NCBI GenBank assembly: GCA_028280225.1
Contig: JANQMF010000086.1
Span: 1 to 64,000, forward strand
DNA length: 64,000 bases
DNA from: Pseudomonadales bacterium
GTDB taxonomy: Bacteria; Pseudomonadota; Gammaproteobacteria; Pseudomonadales; Azotimanducaceae
Reading direction: 5' to 3'
How positions within the stretch are numbered: position 1 is the first letter of the stretch; every line of letters begins with the position of its first letter. Below, one piece after another: positions 9,483-37,335 of the stretch. The position numbers and the translations under genes were made by a program. The notes beneath the pieces were generated by a model that did no database searches, was not told where the DNA came from, and worked only from the letters and a program-made list of their open reading frames with translations.

Positions 9483-10565
9483 GTGCGTCTGGCGGATGTC
9501 ATTGTCAGTTACAGTCTGCAAATCAATAATCGTTGTTTGCGTTATCTTGCCGAATGTGAGGCCAACGGGCCCGTGGTTGGGGATAACAAAGGTGATCCGG
9601 GGGAAGATGAGCTGCAAAGCGCAGCCATAGCCGGGGCCAAGCCTGAGCCTTTACAGGCTGAAATGCACACGGTGTATGCCGAAAGCCTGCTGGCCAGAGA
9701 TAGCCGGCGGTTGTCCAGTATGTGGCAACTGATTGGGCTGGAGGATCCCGGGCTTAAACCTCATGTGCAAAAACTCAGCGACGTCTCCAAAAAAATTGCG
9801 GAGGTGGCATCCGCCCAGCGGCTGGCCATGCGTCTGGCTTCATTGGCTCAGGATGAAGACGACGCGAAGGCCATGTTACGGATGGCGCGCCAGATGCCTG
9901 CTGATGAGTTGCCGGGATGGGGCGTTTTGAACGAACTTTTTGCGGCGGACAGTCATTTTTGGCGTCAGCCTGAGTATTTCAGTCACCTGGATGATGAACA
10001 GCTGGTGAAAAGGGTGGCGCGCAGTTACCGCAAGGCTTACCGGCTGGGCAGAGAATTGCGGGAACTTAACTCGAACGGCCGCAAATATGATTGGTTGAGC
10101 AAGCGGCACCATAAGTTGCTGTTCTGGACACAAGCGTGTGCACACCAGATGGAACTTCTGCGGCGTGGACTGTCAGAAAAGAACAAAGCCCAGCTGTGGT
10201 ACATGGACAAGTTGGCGGATACGTTACGCATGCGGGCGGGGTTGGCTGATCTGCTGACCCGGGCGGATGAGATTGGCCTTGGTGAGCTTGGCACGGGTGA
10301 ATTGCGTGCAGCCAAACTCCGCCAGCCGGATGGCAGGAAAAAGTCCGGCAAGCTGCACAACGATGCGCAACAGGCACGCCTGTATGTATTTGAACAAATT
10401 GCCAAAATGGACAAGCGCACTTTGCGGTTGATCGACAACTGCCTGTTGGTTAAACCCAAAAAGTTTGCGGCTTTGTTAGACGCATGTGTTGCCGGTCTTG
10501 TGGTAGATAAGATTCGTCTTACGGCGCCTGGGGGAAACCCGGATGCCGGACAACAATCGGCATGA
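9483..10565 (+). CDS. CHAD-like domain protein, function unknown
   Basis: A 360-residue helical, strongly basic protein. The start is GTG 9483, preceded by the run AAGGGGGGA (9472-9480). Residues about 165-250 (RKAYRLGRELRELN, then KRHHKLLFWTQACAHQMELL, then MDKLADTLRMRAGLADLL) follow the pattern of the second half of a CHAD domain: conserved basic helices with a K/R-x-x-K-x-x-x-W core. CHAD proteins bind polyphosphate granules and other polyanions. The N-terminal half would contain the first CHAD helix bundle, but the conserved histidines are not clear, so this is a divergent member or a look-alike. No enzymatic motif is visible. Stand-alone gene, 85 bases upstream of the selenoprotein gene. 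Confidence 0.5.
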   Translation: MRLADVIVSYSLQINNRCLRYLAECEANGPVVGDNKGDPGEDELQSAAIAGAKPEPLQAEMHTVYAESLLARDSRRLSSMWQLIGLEDPGLKPHVQKLSDVSKKIAEVASAQRLAMRLASLAQDEDDAKAMLRMARQMPADELPGWGVLNELFAADSHFWRQPEYFSHLDDEQLVKRVARSYRKAYRLGRELRELNSNGRKYDWLSKRHHKLLFWTQACAHQMELLRRGLSEKNKAQLWYMDKLADTLRMRAGLADLLTRADEIGLGELGTGELRAAKLRQPDGRKKSGKLHNDAQQARLYVFEQIAKMDKRTLRLIDNCLLVKPKKFAALLDACVAGLVVDKIRLTAPGGNPDAGQQSA

Positions 10566-10650: not shown

Positions 10651-11238
10651 ATGCCTCTTAAGTGGATACGAATGAAATGGCTGCAAACCGCAGCCGCGGC
10701 CGCTGTCCTTGCCCTGGCAGCCAGTACCTTTGCGGATGACTATGTTGACCAGTGGGGACCTGCGGTGGGTACTATGCTGCCGGGTATCAATGCCGCGGAT
10801 CATAGCGGTACCGTGCAAAATCTGGCCAGCCTGACCGGCAATCAGGGACTGCTGCTGTTTCTTAACCGTTCAGCGGACTGGTGACCCTTCTGCAAACACC
10901 AGTTCGTGCAACTGGAGGAATGGAGAAGTCAGTTCGAGGCCATGGGGGTTAACGTTGCGGGGATGACCTACGACGGCTTGGATATCCTGAACGCCTTTCA
11001 TAGTGAACAAAATCTGGGTTATCCGCTGTTGCGGGATGAAAATGCGGTTCATGTGAATGCCTGGGGTGTGCGTAACGAAGATTATGAAGAAGGCCATCAG
11101 GCTTATGGCATACCCCACCCCGGGATATTGCTGATCAGCGCGGATGGCCGGTTGATCGCCAAGTATGCGATTGCCGGGTATCGCCGCAGACCGCCTTTTG
11201 ATGCACTGCTTGAGGATGTAAAGAACAAACTCAACTAG
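10651..11238 (+). CDS. Secreted peroxiredoxin/thioredoxin-like selenoprotein (UxxC, in-frame TGA)
   Basis: One frame of 196 codons is split only by TGA at 10882-10884, and reading continues without interruption to TAG at 11236. With TGA read as selenocysteine the product has 195 residues and the active site SADW-U78-PF-C81-K. This is exactly the redox motif of redoxin-family relatives, which normally read DWCPYCK. Residues 1-28 are a signal peptide (MPLKWIRMKW, then Ala/Leu core, STFA/DD), so the protein should act in the periplasm. Downstream parts are redoxin-like: GMTYD, GYPLLRD, then IPHPGILLISADGRL with the cis-Pro region. A SECIS-like hairpin follows the TGA at the proper distance. The ATG at 10672 is an alternative start. 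A frameshift or nonsense explanation is unlikely because frame and homology are intact on both sides. SelB, SelA, SelD and tRNA-Sec must be encoded elsewhere. Confidence 0.85.
10887..10928 (+). promoter_or_regulatory. Bacterial SECIS element candidate
   Basis: Directly after the in-frame TGA lies a hairpin with upper stem CCAGTT/AACTGG (10899-10904 with 10910-10915, six perfect pairs) and apical loop CGTGC. A second helix, CTTCT/AGAAG (10887-10891 with 10924-10928), closes it below. The loop starts 20 bases after the TGA and has G at its second position. This fits the published bSECIS rule: loop 16-37 bases from UGA, a G among the first two loop bases, and an upper stem of at least four pairs. 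Confidence 0.75.
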
Positions 11239-11291: not shown

Positions 11292-11413
11292 ATGTCTGGA
11301 GATTCCCGCAGCCTGGTGGTGGGGTGAAAAACTATTTATCGACTAGGTTTTCAACAGATGCGGGCGCTGTTGATTTACCAGTGGCTCATGGATTAAATGC
11401 GCAGCACATGGTT

Positions 11414-12268
11414 ATGAACATCTACAAATGTGGGCTGCTGGCTTTGCTTGTTGGGCTGGTCAGTGGCTGTGCCAGTCTGGTCGGCTCGGTGACCCGGGGA
11501 TTTGCGGAAGATTTGTCCACAGCGATCCTGGACAATCAGGACATCGCCATGGTCCGCGATGGCGCGCCAGCCTACCTGATCCTGATTGACAGTATGGTCG
11601 CCCGCTCTCCGGATGATGCCTTTATGCTGCAACAGTCGGCCACCTTACACTCGGCTTATGCGGCAGCCTTTGTTGCGGACGAAAACCGGGCCAGGTTGTT
11701 ACATACCAAGGCCCGCGCTCAGGCCCTGGAAGCAGCCTGTTTAAGTTTGCAAGATGGCTGTGATTTAAACCGCCGCCCCTATAAAGAGTTTGCCCAATGG
11801 GTACAAGCCAGACAGGTTAAGGATGTGCCCATCATGTACACCCTGGCCACGGCCTGGACCGGTTGGATTCAAAGCCACAGCGATGACTTTTCTGCCATTG
11901 CCGATCTTGCCCGGGTCAAGGCCCTGATGGTGCGCACCAGCGAATTGCAACCGGAATATCAGGAGGGTGGGGTATTTTTGTATCTGGGCATATTTGAAAC
12001 CCTTTTCCCACCCTCGATGGGGGGTAATCCGGATGCCGGTAAACGCTATTTTGAACAGGCCATCGGTTTTTCCGGAGGGAAAAATCTGTTGGCCAAGGTA
12101 GCCTATGCAGAAGAATATGCCCGGCTGGTTTTTGATCGTGCGCTCCACGACCGTCTGCTGGAGGAAGTGCTTGCAGCGGATGTCCGCCAGCCCGGATTAA
12201 CCCTGATGAATACAGTGGCCAAAGAACAGGCCCAACTACTTCTGGAGTCGGCAGATGACTATTTTTGA
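11414..12268 (+). CDS. TRAP transporter T-component (TatT-like) lipoprotein
   Basis: A helical TPR-like lipoprotein of 284 residues. The lipobox LVSGC places the lipidated Cys at residue 19 when translation starts at the ATG at 11414 (ATG 11408 is two codons earlier). The longer open frame from 11252 adds an untypical N-terminus and would bury the signal sequence, so it is not used. The body (TLATAWTGWIQ, then VFLYLGIFETLFPPSMGGNPDAGKRYFEQAI) matches the TatT family. In Treponema TatT (Tp0956) forms a trimer with its partner TRAP binding protein, with a channel suited to hydrophobic ligands. It overlaps the TRAP SBP gene by 14 bases and heads an eight-gene operon. Confidence 0.85.
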   Translation: MNIYKCGLLALLVGLVSGCASLVGSVTRGFAEDLSTAILDNQDIAMVRDGAPAYLILIDSMVARSPDDAFMLQQSATLHSAYAAAFVADENRARLLHTKARAQALEAACLSLQDGCDLNRRPYKEFAQWVQARQVKDVPIMYTLATAWTGWIQSHSDDFSAIADLARVKALMVRTSELQPEYQEGGVFLYLGIFETLFPPSMGGNPDAGKRYFEQAIGFSGGKNLLAKVAYAEEYARLVFDRALHDRLLEEVLAADVRQPGLTLMNTVAKEQAQLLLESADDYF

Positions 12269-13277
12269 AATCCCCAGGCTGGTTTTATCGCTGCGGATGT
12301 TTATTTTCCTGGCCGGGCTTGGGTTGGTGAACCCAGCCTATGCGGTGACGCTAAAACTGGCCACTGTCTCCCCGGAGGGTTCCGGTTGGATGAAGGTACT
12401 GCGCGAACGTGCCAAAGCCATCGAAGCGCAGACCAACGGCGAGGTGAAATTTAAAATATATCCCGGCGGGGTCATGGGAGATGACAAAGCTGTCCTGCGT
12501 AAAATCCGCGTTGGGCAGCTCCACGGTGCGGTACTTACCGCGGGTGGCCTGGTGCAGACCTATCCGGACATCGTTTTATATAACCTGCCCTTGTTGTTTC
12601 GCAACAACGAAGAGGTGGACTACGTGCGCAGCAATCTGGATGCCCAGCTGATCGAAGGGTTGCGCAAGAAAAAATTTGTTGGTTTTGGTTTTGCCGAGGT
12701 TGGCTTTGCGTATCCCATGACCCAGACGCCGATTACCGGTGTTGCGCAAATGCGCGAGCGTAAGGTATGGACACCGGACAATGATCAGGGTGCCATTGAA
12801 GCTTTTGCCGCCTTTGATATCTCACCCATCCCGCTGCCCATTGCGGACGTTCTGGGTGGGTTGCAGACGGGGCTGATCGACAGTGTCGGCTCGCCGCCCA
12901 TTGGTACCATTGCCCTGCAGTGGCACACCCAGGTTCAATATGGCCTGGATCTGCCGCTTATCTATGTGTATGGCACCCTGGCCATTGCCGAGCGCGCTTT
13001 TAACAAGTTGACCACGGCCCAGCAGGCGATTGTCACCCGGGAGCTCAATGCCGCTGTTGATGCGGTGAATATAACCGCACGTAAAGATCATGTCAGCGCC
13101 AAACAGGCGATCAGCAATCAGGGTATTCAGTGGCTTGAGCCGTCAGCGGCAGAGATGGAGGAATGGCTGACCCTTGCGGCCGCGGCCCGGGATGTCACTG
13201 TGGCGGATGGGTATATTTCTTCCCAACTCTACGCCCAGGTAGAGGCGTTGTTGCAACAGTATCGAAATAGTGACTAA
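12255..13277 (+). CDS. TRAP transporter periplasmic substrate-binding protein (DctP family)
   Basis: A 340-residue DctP-type binding protein. The signal peptide ends at about residue 30 (PAYA/V). The mature protein has LKLATVSPEGSGWMK, KFKIYPGGVMGDD, LPLLFRNNEEVD and the GLIDSVGSPP hinge. The position that in most TRAP proteins carries the carboxylate-binding Arg (KIRxP) is K170-V-W172-T-P, so a Trp stands there. With the T-component partner this argues for a ligand other than a simple carboxylate. It overlaps both neighbouring genes (14 bases with TatT, 8 with DctQ), so synthesis is probably coupled. Confidence 0.9.
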   Translation: MTIFEIPRLVLSLRMFIFLAGLGLVNPAYAVTLKLATVSPEGSGWMKVLRERAKAIEAQTNGEVKFKIYPGGVMGDDKAVLRKIRVGQLHGAVLTAGGLVQTYPDIVLYNLPLLFRNNEEVDYVRSNLDAQLIEGLRKKKFVGFGFAEVGFAYPMTQTPITGVAQMRERKVWTPDNDQGAIEAFAAFDISPIPLPIADVLGGLQTGLIDSVGSPPIGTIALQWHTQVQYGLDLPLIYVYGTLAIAERAFNKLTTAQQAIVTRELNAAVDAVNITARKDHVSAKQAISNQGIQWLEPSAAEMEEWLTLAAAARDVTVADGYISSQLYAQVEALLQQYRNSD

Positions 13278-13731
13278 GCAGGCGGTACTTTGGCTCAGGC
13301 GCGTTGAAGACGGGCTGTTAGCACTTCTTCTGACCGCCATGATCAGTGTTGCCGCCGCCCAGGTAGTGTTGCGCAACCTTTTTGATACCGGACTGTTTTG
13401 GGGGGACAGCGCGGTGCGGGTGATGGTCTTATGGGTGGCCATGATTGGGGCCATGGTGGCCTCCCGCAACGACGAACATATCCGTATCGACATTGCCGGG
13501 CGTTATATCACCGGGAAGTTACGACCGTTGCTGGCCCGGGCGGTTCATGCCTTTACCGCAGCGGTGCTGGTCATCTTTGCCTGGTACAGCTTTCAGTTTG
13601 TGCACTTCGAATATGTTGATCAAACCATCGCTTTTGGCGTGGTCCCCGCCTGGCTGTGTGAAGCGATCATGCCCGTTGGCGCGGGGGTGATGGCGTTGCG
13701 CTATGTTCTGCACACGATCTCGCCACCATGA
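13270..13731 (+). CDS. TRAP transporter small permease subunit (DctQ family)
   Basis: A 153-residue inner-membrane protein with four predicted helices, at about residues 12-35, 52-72, 90-112 and 125-145. The DctQ hallmark R-N-L-F-D-T-G-L-F-W-G-D (residues 38-49) and the loop SRNDEHIRIDI after helix two are visible. It starts at a GTG that overlaps the SBP gene by eight bases. With the DctM subunit it forms the cation-driven membrane part that takes ligand from the binding protein. Confidence 0.9.
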   Translation: MTKQAVLWLRRVEDGLLALLLTAMISVAAAQVVLRNLFDTGLFWGDSAVRVMVLWVAMIGAMVASRNDEHIRIDIAGRYITGKLRPLLARAVHAFTAAVLVIFAWYSFQFVHFEYVDQTIAFGVVPAWLCEAIMPVGAGVMALRYVLHTISPP

Positions 13732-15008
13732 TCTGGGCGGGTATTGCACTGTTGATCCTTATGGCTGCAGCCGGTGCACCGCTGTTTGCCGTGCTCATGG
13801 GGGCGGCAATGTTAGGCTTTTACAGTGCTGAGATTGATCTGGCCATTATTGCCATCGAGCTTTATCGGATTGTCGATACCCCGCTGCTGGTAGCCTTACC
13901 CCTGTTTACCTTCAGTGGCTATTTACTGAGTGAATCCAATACCAGCACGCGTCTGGTCAATCTGGTACAGAGCCTGTTCGGATCACTCCCCAGCGGGCTT
14001 GCCATTGTCGGTTTTATGGCTTGCGCGGTGTTCACTGCGTTAACCGGCGCATCCGGGGTGACCATTGTTGCCTTGGGCGCACTATTGCTGCCGGCCCTGC
14101 AGTCTGCGGGCTTTTCCGAACGATACAGTGTGGGTCTGGTGACCACCTCCGGCAGCTTGGGATTGCTGCTGGTGCCCTCTGTGCCGCTTATCCTTTATGG
14201 GGTGATTGCCCAGCAATTGGATGTTGGCCCCTCCTTTACCATTGTTGAGCTATTTGTTGCCGGGGTATTGCCCCTGACCCTGATGCTGGCGCTGTTGATT
14301 GGGTGGACGCTGTGGATACATCGGGGGGGTGTTATCCCCAGAGTGCCCTTTAAGACCATCAATGTGTGGCATGCGCTGAAGGATGCACGCTGGGAGTTAC
14401 CGCTGCCCTTTGTTGTGCTGGGTGGGGTATTCAGTGGTTTTTTTGCCGTTTCCGAAGCGGCTGCGGTCACCGCCCTGTACGTGATAGTTGCGCAGGTATT
14501 CCTTTACCGGGAAGTTTCTCTTAAACAGCTCCCCGGGGTCATGGTCCAATCCATGAAGATGGTGGGGGGTATCCTGTTGATTCTGGGGATTGCCCTGGCA
14601 TTCACCAATTTTCTGGTGGACGCCGAAGTGCCCCAGGCGTTGTTTGCGTTTATGCAGGAGCACGTACAGAGCCCCCTTGGCTTTCTGTTGTTGCTGAACA
14701 TTCTATTGCTTGCCCTGGGCGCGGTACTGGATATCTTTTCCGCCATTGTCATTATGGTGCCCCTGTTGTTACCGGTGGCGGTAGGGTATGACATTCATCC
14801 GGTGCACCTAGGTATTATATTTTTGGCGAACATGCAGATCGGCTACTTTACACCCCCTGTGGGTATGAACTTGTTTATCGCCAGTTACCGGTTTAAAAAA
14901 CCGTTGGTGGAACTCTATAAGGCAACCTGGCCCTTTATGGTGGTGTTGTTGATTGCCCTGGTCATCATCACGTATGTGCCTGCTTTGAGCCTGGGATTGA
15001 TTACATGA
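13728..15008 (+). CDS. TRAP transporter large permease subunit (DctM family)
   Basis: A 426-residue protein with about twelve hydrophobic segments. DctM motifs are clear: FTALTGASGVTIVALGALLLP at residues 103-123, GLVTTSGSLGLLLVPSVPLI, and IGYFTPPVGMNLFIAS near the C-terminus, which lines the Na+/substrate sites in elevator-type TRAP permeases. ATGA overlap with dctQ and again with the following mlaC-like gene ties it into one transcript. TRAP permeases use an ion gradient rather than ATP. Confidence 0.93.
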   Translation: MIWAGIALLILMAAAGAPLFAVLMGAAMLGFYSAEIDLAIIAIELYRIVDTPLLVALPLFTFSGYLLSESNTSTRLVNLVQSLFGSLPSGLAIVGFMACAVFTALTGASGVTIVALGALLLPALQSAGFSERYSVGLVTTSGSLGLLLVPSVPLILYGVIAQQLDVGPSFTIVELFVAGVLPLTLMLALLIGWTLWIHRGGVIPRVPFKTINVWHALKDARWELPLPFVVLGGVFSGFFAVSEAAAVTALYVIVAQVFLYREVSLKQLPGVMVQSMKMVGGILLILGIALAFTNFLVDAEVPQALFAFMQEHVQSPLGFLLLLNILLLALGAVLDIFSAIVIMVPLLLPVAVGYDIHPVHLGIIFLANMQIGYFTPPVGMNLFIASYRFKKPLVELYKATWPFMVVLLIALVIITYVPALSLGLIT

Positions 15009-36892: not shown

Positions 36893-37335
36893 AAAAAGTT
36901 GTTTGCCTGCTTGTTTGTTTCAGTCTTGGTTTACCTGGGTGTTCCCTGGATGAGCAGATTGTTTTTGCTGACGGCACCCACTCACAAATGTCCCACTGGC
37001 AGGGACGGTGGCTGGTGATCAACTATTGGGCTGAATGGTGTGCCCCCTGTCGTCACGAAATACCTGAATTTAACGACCTGCACAGGGACCGGGTAGCGAA
37101 CGGCCTGGTCATGTTGGGGGTGAATTACGATGGTTTGCAGGGTGAAAAATTGCGCGAGGTTATAGCGCGTATGGAGATCAACTTTCCGGTGCTGGCACAG
37201 GATCCGCAACAGCGTTACGGCTATGACCGGGCACAAACCCTGCCCATGACGGTTATTATCAACCCTGACCGCCAAGTGCACGATGTTCTGATTGGGCCCC
37301 AGACCAAGGCCAGCGTTCTGGCTGCCTTAAACTGA
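36889..37335 (+). CDS. TlpA-like thioredoxin-fold lipoprotein
   Basis: A 148-residue envelope protein. The signal sequence ends in LGLPGC, so a lipidated Cys lies at about residue 18. The thioredoxin fold has the active site WAEWCAPCRHEIPEF and the cis-Pro loop TLPMTVIINPDR. This is the TlpA/ResA pattern, which reduces or isomerises disulfides in the periplasm (for example in cytochrome c maturation). The gene is coupled to yihY by a four-base overlap, as in Pseudomonas. Confidence 0.88.
   Translation: MKKVVCLLVCFSLGLPGCSLDEQIVFADGTHSQMSHWQGRWLVINYWAEWCAPCRHEIPEFNDLHRDRVANGLVMLGVNYDGLQGEKLREVIARMEINFPVLAQDPQQRYGYDRAQTLPMTVIINPDRQVHDVLIGPQTKASVLAALN

Follow-up and report, generated by a model that had tools for sequence, protein, structure and literature searches.

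Peroxiredoxin-like (Prx-like) selenoproteins with a UxxC motif, in which U stands for selenocysteine (Sec), are a kind already known (2005; ocean data), since both PMC1088965 and PMC13188914 describe them. PMC1088965 reports 22 "Prx-like" sequences, 21 of them with UXXC, and Table 1 of PMC13188914 has an entry for a Prx-like thiol:disulfide oxidoreductase with PF00578 and UxxC/UxxU. We analyzed a gene of this kind in a stretch of 64,000 nucleotides (nt), hereafter the window, which comprises positions 1 to 64,000 of the forward strand of contig JANQMF010000086.1 (assembly GCA_028280225.1, Pseudomonadales bacterium, Azotimanducaceae). It shares with the published proteins the PF00578 domain, UxxC at the place where Sec peroxiredoxins have TxxU, and a bacterial Sec insertion sequence (SECIS) after the UGA; the assignment rests on domain, motif and SECIS rather than on direct comparison with the reference member, WP_010940744.1. 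The novelty implied by a preliminary description of the locus was therefore overstated, Prx-like UxxC selenoproteins having already appeared in PMC1088965. What may set the window subfamily apart from the published members is its probable signal peptide and its frequent position upstream of a TPAT-type tripartite ATP-independent periplasmic (TRAP) transporter operon, and this frequent position is what looks new. The features of the gene are as follows.

10651..11238, plus strand: selenoprotein gene for a probably exported Prx-like redoxin of 195 amino acids (aa) with U78 (open reading frame translation, Pfam, homologue alignment)
10651..10734, plus strand: probable signal peptide of 28 codons, ending ...AAASTFA and followed by DDY (cleavage site by eye; hydrophobic segment in homologues)
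10882..10884, plus strand: TGA, very probably read as Sec, U78 of W-U-P-F-C (TGA 59, Cys 25, TGG 1 of 85 distinct loci)
10891..10893, plus strand: codon of C81, partner Cys of UxxC (invariant in the 26-sequence alignment A1)
10899..10915, plus strand: putative SECIS hairpin, stem 10899-10904/10910-10915, loop 10905-10909, GU invariant at loop positions 2-3 (comparative pairing)

The frame runs from ATG 10651 to TAG 11236-11238, and TGA 10882-10884 is its sole interruption. The start at ATG 10651 is a provisional choice, TTG 10621 and ATG 10672 being alternatives in the same frame. Translated across the TGA as Sec, the protein reads ...FLNRSADW-U-PFC-KHQF..., with U at residue 78 and 117 residues, homologous to relatives, after it; in all of this the preliminary description was right. 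It matches AhpC-TSA (PF00578) at 67.6 bits against a Pfam cut-off of 26, and the Redoxin domain at 43.3 bits against 26.6. Under the standard bacterial code (table 11) the gene falls into two open reading frames, one that starts at TTG 10621 and codes for 87 aa and another of 110 aa, a split by gene callers that had been foreseen. These two frames are also what would be expected if the TGA were a true stop, within a split or dead gene or between two adjacent genes. When both strands of the window were scanned for TGA codons that have open flanks, a Cys close by and a hairpin of at least 5 base pairs (bp), this site alone was returned; the criteria were fixed once the feature was already known. 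A promoter and terminator scan near the gene gave counts no more than one standard deviation away from those of shuffles.

Homologues were sought in 97 genomes, including the source genome (a 4.44-Mb draft made up of 242 contigs, with 96.7% completeness). At E<=1e-10, 53 genomes gave a match, with 76 matching places when paralogues are included, and exactly one in-frame TGA was present at 73 of the 76 (rows counted by eye). The three exceptions were a copy with TAG and TAA in genome G055, the second half of a split copy in G041, and a copy without a stop in G083. For codon comparison we assembled 110 loci, namely the window gene, 29 loci from the 97-genome search (which kept 30 of the 76 places) and 80 named loci (the best 80 of 143). 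The two sources overlap, and removal of exact duplicates over a 210-nt stretch, with near-duplicates kept, left 85 distinct loci. The named homologues come mostly from uncultured Pseudomonadales or Gammaproteobacteria, such as HTCC2089, the K189A clade and Candidatus Azophilus (Candidatus Azotimanducaceae). At the Sec site, TGA is found in 59 distinct loci, TGC or TGT in 25, and TGG in one. The Cys forms, whose hosts are Halieaceae, Pseudohongiella-like bacteria, Gammaproteobacterium L111 and Alphaproteobacteria (Kordiimonas, Robiginitomaculum and others), correspond to three changes on a tree from which rows L049, L052, L060 and L115 were left out. They carry DWCPYC, DWCPFC or KWCPFC at the U78 site, so that the Cys-bearing relatives named in the preliminary description (DWCPYCK) do exist, and its UxxC motif with Sec in the N-terminal position stands as U78 and C81.

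A sequencing error that replaced TGC or TGT is excluded, because 58 other distinct loci have TGA at the site. Homologues do not end there either, as the frame carries on past the TGA. Judged from aligned coding sequences, purifying selection acts on this downstream frame; the ratio of nonsynonymous to synonymous substitution rates (dN/dS) 3' of the TGA was 0.045-0.18 in eight of twelve comparisons, synonymous rates being saturated in the other four. A true stop is contradicted already by the homologue codons, by dN/dS and by the hairpin pairing described below: 59 distinct loci combine the TGA with an uninterrupted frame and the hairpin (L076 among them has one further stop), and we regard a true stop as very improbable. 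The single TGG relative might suggest that TGA encodes tryptophan or some other residue through a changed code. Cys is the residue in all 25 homologues whose site holds a sense codon and whose frame has no stop, the sole TGG copy has two other stops, and SelA, SelB and SelD are present in the genome, which leaves a changed code the least credible of the explanations considered here.

The preliminary description had also placed a SECIS-like hairpin just after the TGA, and comparison bears this out. The 6-bp stem, whose loop starts 20 nt past the TGA, was examined in 59 ungapped 60-nt sequences from Sec loci. It is complete in 59 of 59 loci (354 of 354 cells paired), and it covaries. Among the Cys homologues 83 of 150 cells are paired and the full stem is kept in none of 25, and the decayed TGG copy, L049, keeps a complete stem. 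In the 56 distinct Sec rows all 336 cells are paired, with three of the six pairs changing on both sides and three invariant. The share of paired cells, the number of double-changed cells and the covariation score were each reached by 0 of 500 shuffles, although, as is cautioned for covariation tools, related rows may beat such shuffles. When the partner was shifted by 1-3 columns, pairing fell to 5-49%. A G in the loop is invariant in the 59 Sec sequences, and the hairpin agrees with the bacterial SECIS as characterized in PMC1088965, a hairpin shortly after the UGA whose small apical loop contains G.

The machinery for Sec insertion was recovered in part. Matches to selA, selB and selD in the source genome were all above cut-offs, and selA adjoins selB on contig C49, which breaks off at codon 382 of selB; the assembly yielded no tRNA-Sec. 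Across the 97 genomes, a redoxin orthologue (E<=1e-25, with the decayed L049 counted) and SelA occur together in 44, the orthologue alone in 5, SelA alone in 13 and neither in 35 (Fisher p 1.5e-10, without correction for relatedness). Within a selected set of 28 genomes, 6 of 6 with the Sec form have SelA, versus 3 of 22 with the Cys form. SelD of the source genome (L029; contig C181, 1411-3555, minus strand) makes up the C-terminal portion of a 714-aa protein, the N-terminal half of which by eye resembles an NAD(P)/FAD-dependent oxidoreductase, presumably a fusion of a known type.

Known exported selenoproteins include formate dehydrogenase-N and the NiFeSe hydrogenases. The signal peptide of the redoxin noted in the preliminary description is probable, since 50 of the 53 Sec homologues examined (from 59, with 6 set aside) have a hydrophobic segment ahead of the mature start. 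Taken separately, reading of the TGA 10882-10884 as Sec appears nearly certain and export of the redoxin highly probable. The two jointly, our main reading, receive a probability of about 0.88.

Several observations weigh against that reading or against the activity proposed below. Three of the 53 Sec homologues miss the signal-peptide threshold. Sec row L076 has a second stop inside the aligned stretch, and the decayed-looking L049 (G055) carries TGG at the site followed by TAG and TAA, in a genome where selA persists only as two fragments and tRNA-Sec is present; the gene can thus apparently be lost. Two of the five covariation measures were not above shuffles (both-side-changed pairs, 200/500; further pair types, 459/500), and an Rfam scan of the redoxin gene, two paralogue loci and the selA-selB contig gave no family at E<=5. 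Single-sequence folding of the hairpin was unremarkable (z -0.07 to -1.46) and was dropped as evidence, so that support for the SECIS is comparative and does not come from single-sequence thermodynamics. Five orthologue-bearing genomes, drafts of 90-520 contigs that are 58-96% complete, have neither SelA nor tRNA-Sec. In the source genome no tRNA-Sec scored above the Rfam cut-off, the best hit (42.5 bits) being tRNA-Ser by ARAGORN, and ARAGORN found no tRNA on the selA-selB contig; this absence would also favor a true stop. Finally, the Prx fold of the protein may leave room for peroxidase activity.

The position of tRNA-Sec in relatives bears on its absence here. Of 47 genomes that have both selA and tRNA-Sec, 35 carry them on one contig and strand. 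In 34 of these 35, tRNA-Sec follows the selA match at a distance of 180-6327 nt (median 2062; all but the one at 180 nt are at least 1916 nt away), and in the remaining relative it is 12.3 kb from selA. Contig C49 stops 1193 nt past the selA match, inside selB and before the place that tRNA-Sec takes in relatives, which would explain why it was not found; a contig gap is the simplest reading. PMC9312934 reports tRNA-Sec overlapping selB in Alphaproteobacteria, and similar traits in Gammaproteobacteria.

With Sec insertion and export taken together, the following course of events may be proposed. SelB with Sec-tRNA would bind the hairpin just past the UGA and place Sec at residue 78, as the machinery genes and the conserved hairpin suggest, and the signal peptide would send the preprotein to the periplasm. 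There, Sec, placed where a long helix of the Prx-fold domain begins, would supply the selenolate nucleophile, with C81 as resolving thiol. U78 and C81 would form a selenenylsulfide, the protein thus working as a thiol/selenol-disulfide oxidoreductase, and re-reduction would probably proceed via the DsbD-type protein of the genome.

From its sequence, the protein is best read as a periplasmic selenol/disulfide oxidoreductase, and we lean towards such an enzyme rather than a classical peroxidase. An exported selenoperoxidase, an atypical peroxiredoxin in which U78 or C81 reduces periplasmic hydroperoxides and the other residue resolves, is a possibility of lower standing. The Prx fold was recovered, with peroxiredoxins as the best fold matches, and the "thioredoxin-type" label of the preliminary description accordingly holds for the active-site motif and fails for the fold, which is nearer peroxiredoxins than thioredoxin. 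The catalytic residues argue against a peroxidase. The Prx signature, PxxxTxxC plus an active-site Arg, is absent, as in a low-identity alignment T45 of PrxQ falls on U78 and R123 on H156. Furthermore, all 26 sequences of alignment A1 have P157 close to the active site; this residue may correspond to the cis-Pro of thioredoxin-like oxidoreductases.

The same features separate the redoxin from Peroxiredoxin Q/BCP/AhpE, as it has U78 and H156 where the Thr and Arg of PrxQ stand, a thioredoxin-like W-U-x-x-C motif and a signal peptide. Likeness to TlpA/ResA/DsbE consists of weak sequence similarity, export, and a motif of the WCxxC type. The redoxin falls far under the cut-offs of these families (32.6 against 170 bits for ResA, 22 against 123 for DsbE), and its best folds are peroxiredoxins. 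The SelL-related redox protein model NF040769 matches at E 4.3e-07, yet with 29.7 bits against a cut-off of 120. In total, 15 NCBIfam models match the window protein at E<=1 and none reaches its cut-off; cut-offs were compared for the window protein alone, and the other 25 alignment members are represented by match numbers and best E-values.

The source genome contains 19 PF00578 places, seven of which, the window gene included, have one in-frame TGA (six UxxC, one WAPYUGC). The six further genes lie on contigs C54, C99, C195, C138, C51 and C60 (L008, L007, L027, L212, L214 and L213); five have UxxC, and the WAPYUGC one by eye resembles the WAxxUGC type. A stem of 6-8 bp follows the TGA in six of the seven genes, and one of just 3 bp in that on C51. 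Because seven AhpC/TSA-fold genes have one in-frame TGA, the genome, on this sequence evidence, relies heavily on selenium. A candidate on contig C187 (E 0.16) was rejected as a chance match, judged from its DNA. The window holds a second AhpC/TSA-domain gene (36970-37281), without in-frame TGA.

The TRAP operon lies downstream of the redoxin gene.

11408..12268, plus strand: TatT, T-component lipoprotein of a TPAT-type TRAP transporter (PF16811, E 3.7e-67; synteny); the frame opens at GTG 11252, and ATG 11408 is the likely start
12255..13277, plus strand: DctP solute-binding protein (PF03480, E 5.7e-33)
13270..13731, plus strand: DctQ small permease (PF04290, E 9.9e-25)
13728..15008, plus strand: DctM large permease (PF06808, E 1.5e-77)

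The solved structures nearest to TatT are 8g52 (E 6e-15), which would be BstC, and Tp0956 (3u64; E 3.6e-06); PMC10942540, on bacterial sterol-binding proteins, likens BstC to Tp0956.

Among loci with at least 1300 nt of flank, a same-strand TatT was present within 1300 nt downstream in 37 of 53 Sec loci (59 in all) versus 0 of 23 Cys loci. Upstream linkage is weaker, the enoyl-CoA hydratase neighbor not being found in 7 of 15 TatT-linked loci (at least 3.7 kb upstream) in which TatT stays. Such linkage suggests a shared role of the redoxin and the TRAP operon. As a tentative idea, the redoxin may be a dedicated partner of the downstream transporter, setting the redox state of TatT, of another part or of the substrate. 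Conserved Cys residues are in line with this: a CxxxxxxC pair is invariant in 39 of 39 redoxin-linked TatT, DctQ has Cys columns at 8, 14 and 7 of 16 sequences, and DctM has them at 15 and 7 of 16, so that each permease has one nearly constant Cys (14/16 and 15/16). The same CxxxxxxC pair, however, is found in 25 of 26 TatT of the order without a redoxin within ~1.5 kb (77 genomes matched; of their 30 best-scoring loci, which were the ones used, 4 were redoxin-linked). A TatT disulfide was dropped as specific evidence of a client, because the pair is as conserved without the redoxin nearby. DctP has no Cys column reaching 40% (33 sequences), ~170 nt separate the redoxin gene from tatT, and relatedness alone may preserve neighbors. 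A second Sec clade, too, lacks TatT within the flanks examined (L102, L104, L107, L109, L093 and L056-L058).

In that clade the redoxin is followed by a conserved ~135-aa protein without Pfam match. Positions 9483-10565 of the window encode a 360-aa protein, likewise without Pfam match, which some TatT-linked relatives also have ahead of the redoxin.

Standard annotation would cut the redoxin gene in two or lose it. Since the open reading frame is split and no NCBIfam model reaches its cut-off, public annotation may conceal a subfamily in which Sec is conserved. A doubtful but more far-reaching possibility is a periplasmic selenoenzyme dedicated to the TPAT-type TRAP transporter, whose Sec chemistry would act, in the course of uptake, as a control on TatT, on the substrate or on a thiol of a permease; if true, nutrient import by these bacteria would be gated by the supply of selenium. 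We know of no case in which a redox selenoenzyme is coupled to TRAP uptake. A literature search, with most subscription papers outside it, returned no publication on this group, on such coupling or on TatT/TRAP linkage of a Sec redoxin in the text accessible to it. The function of most selenoproteins is unclear according to PMC13188914 and PMC9312934, and the linkage between the Sec form and the TRAP operon is a testable lead on the role of Prx-like selenoproteins.
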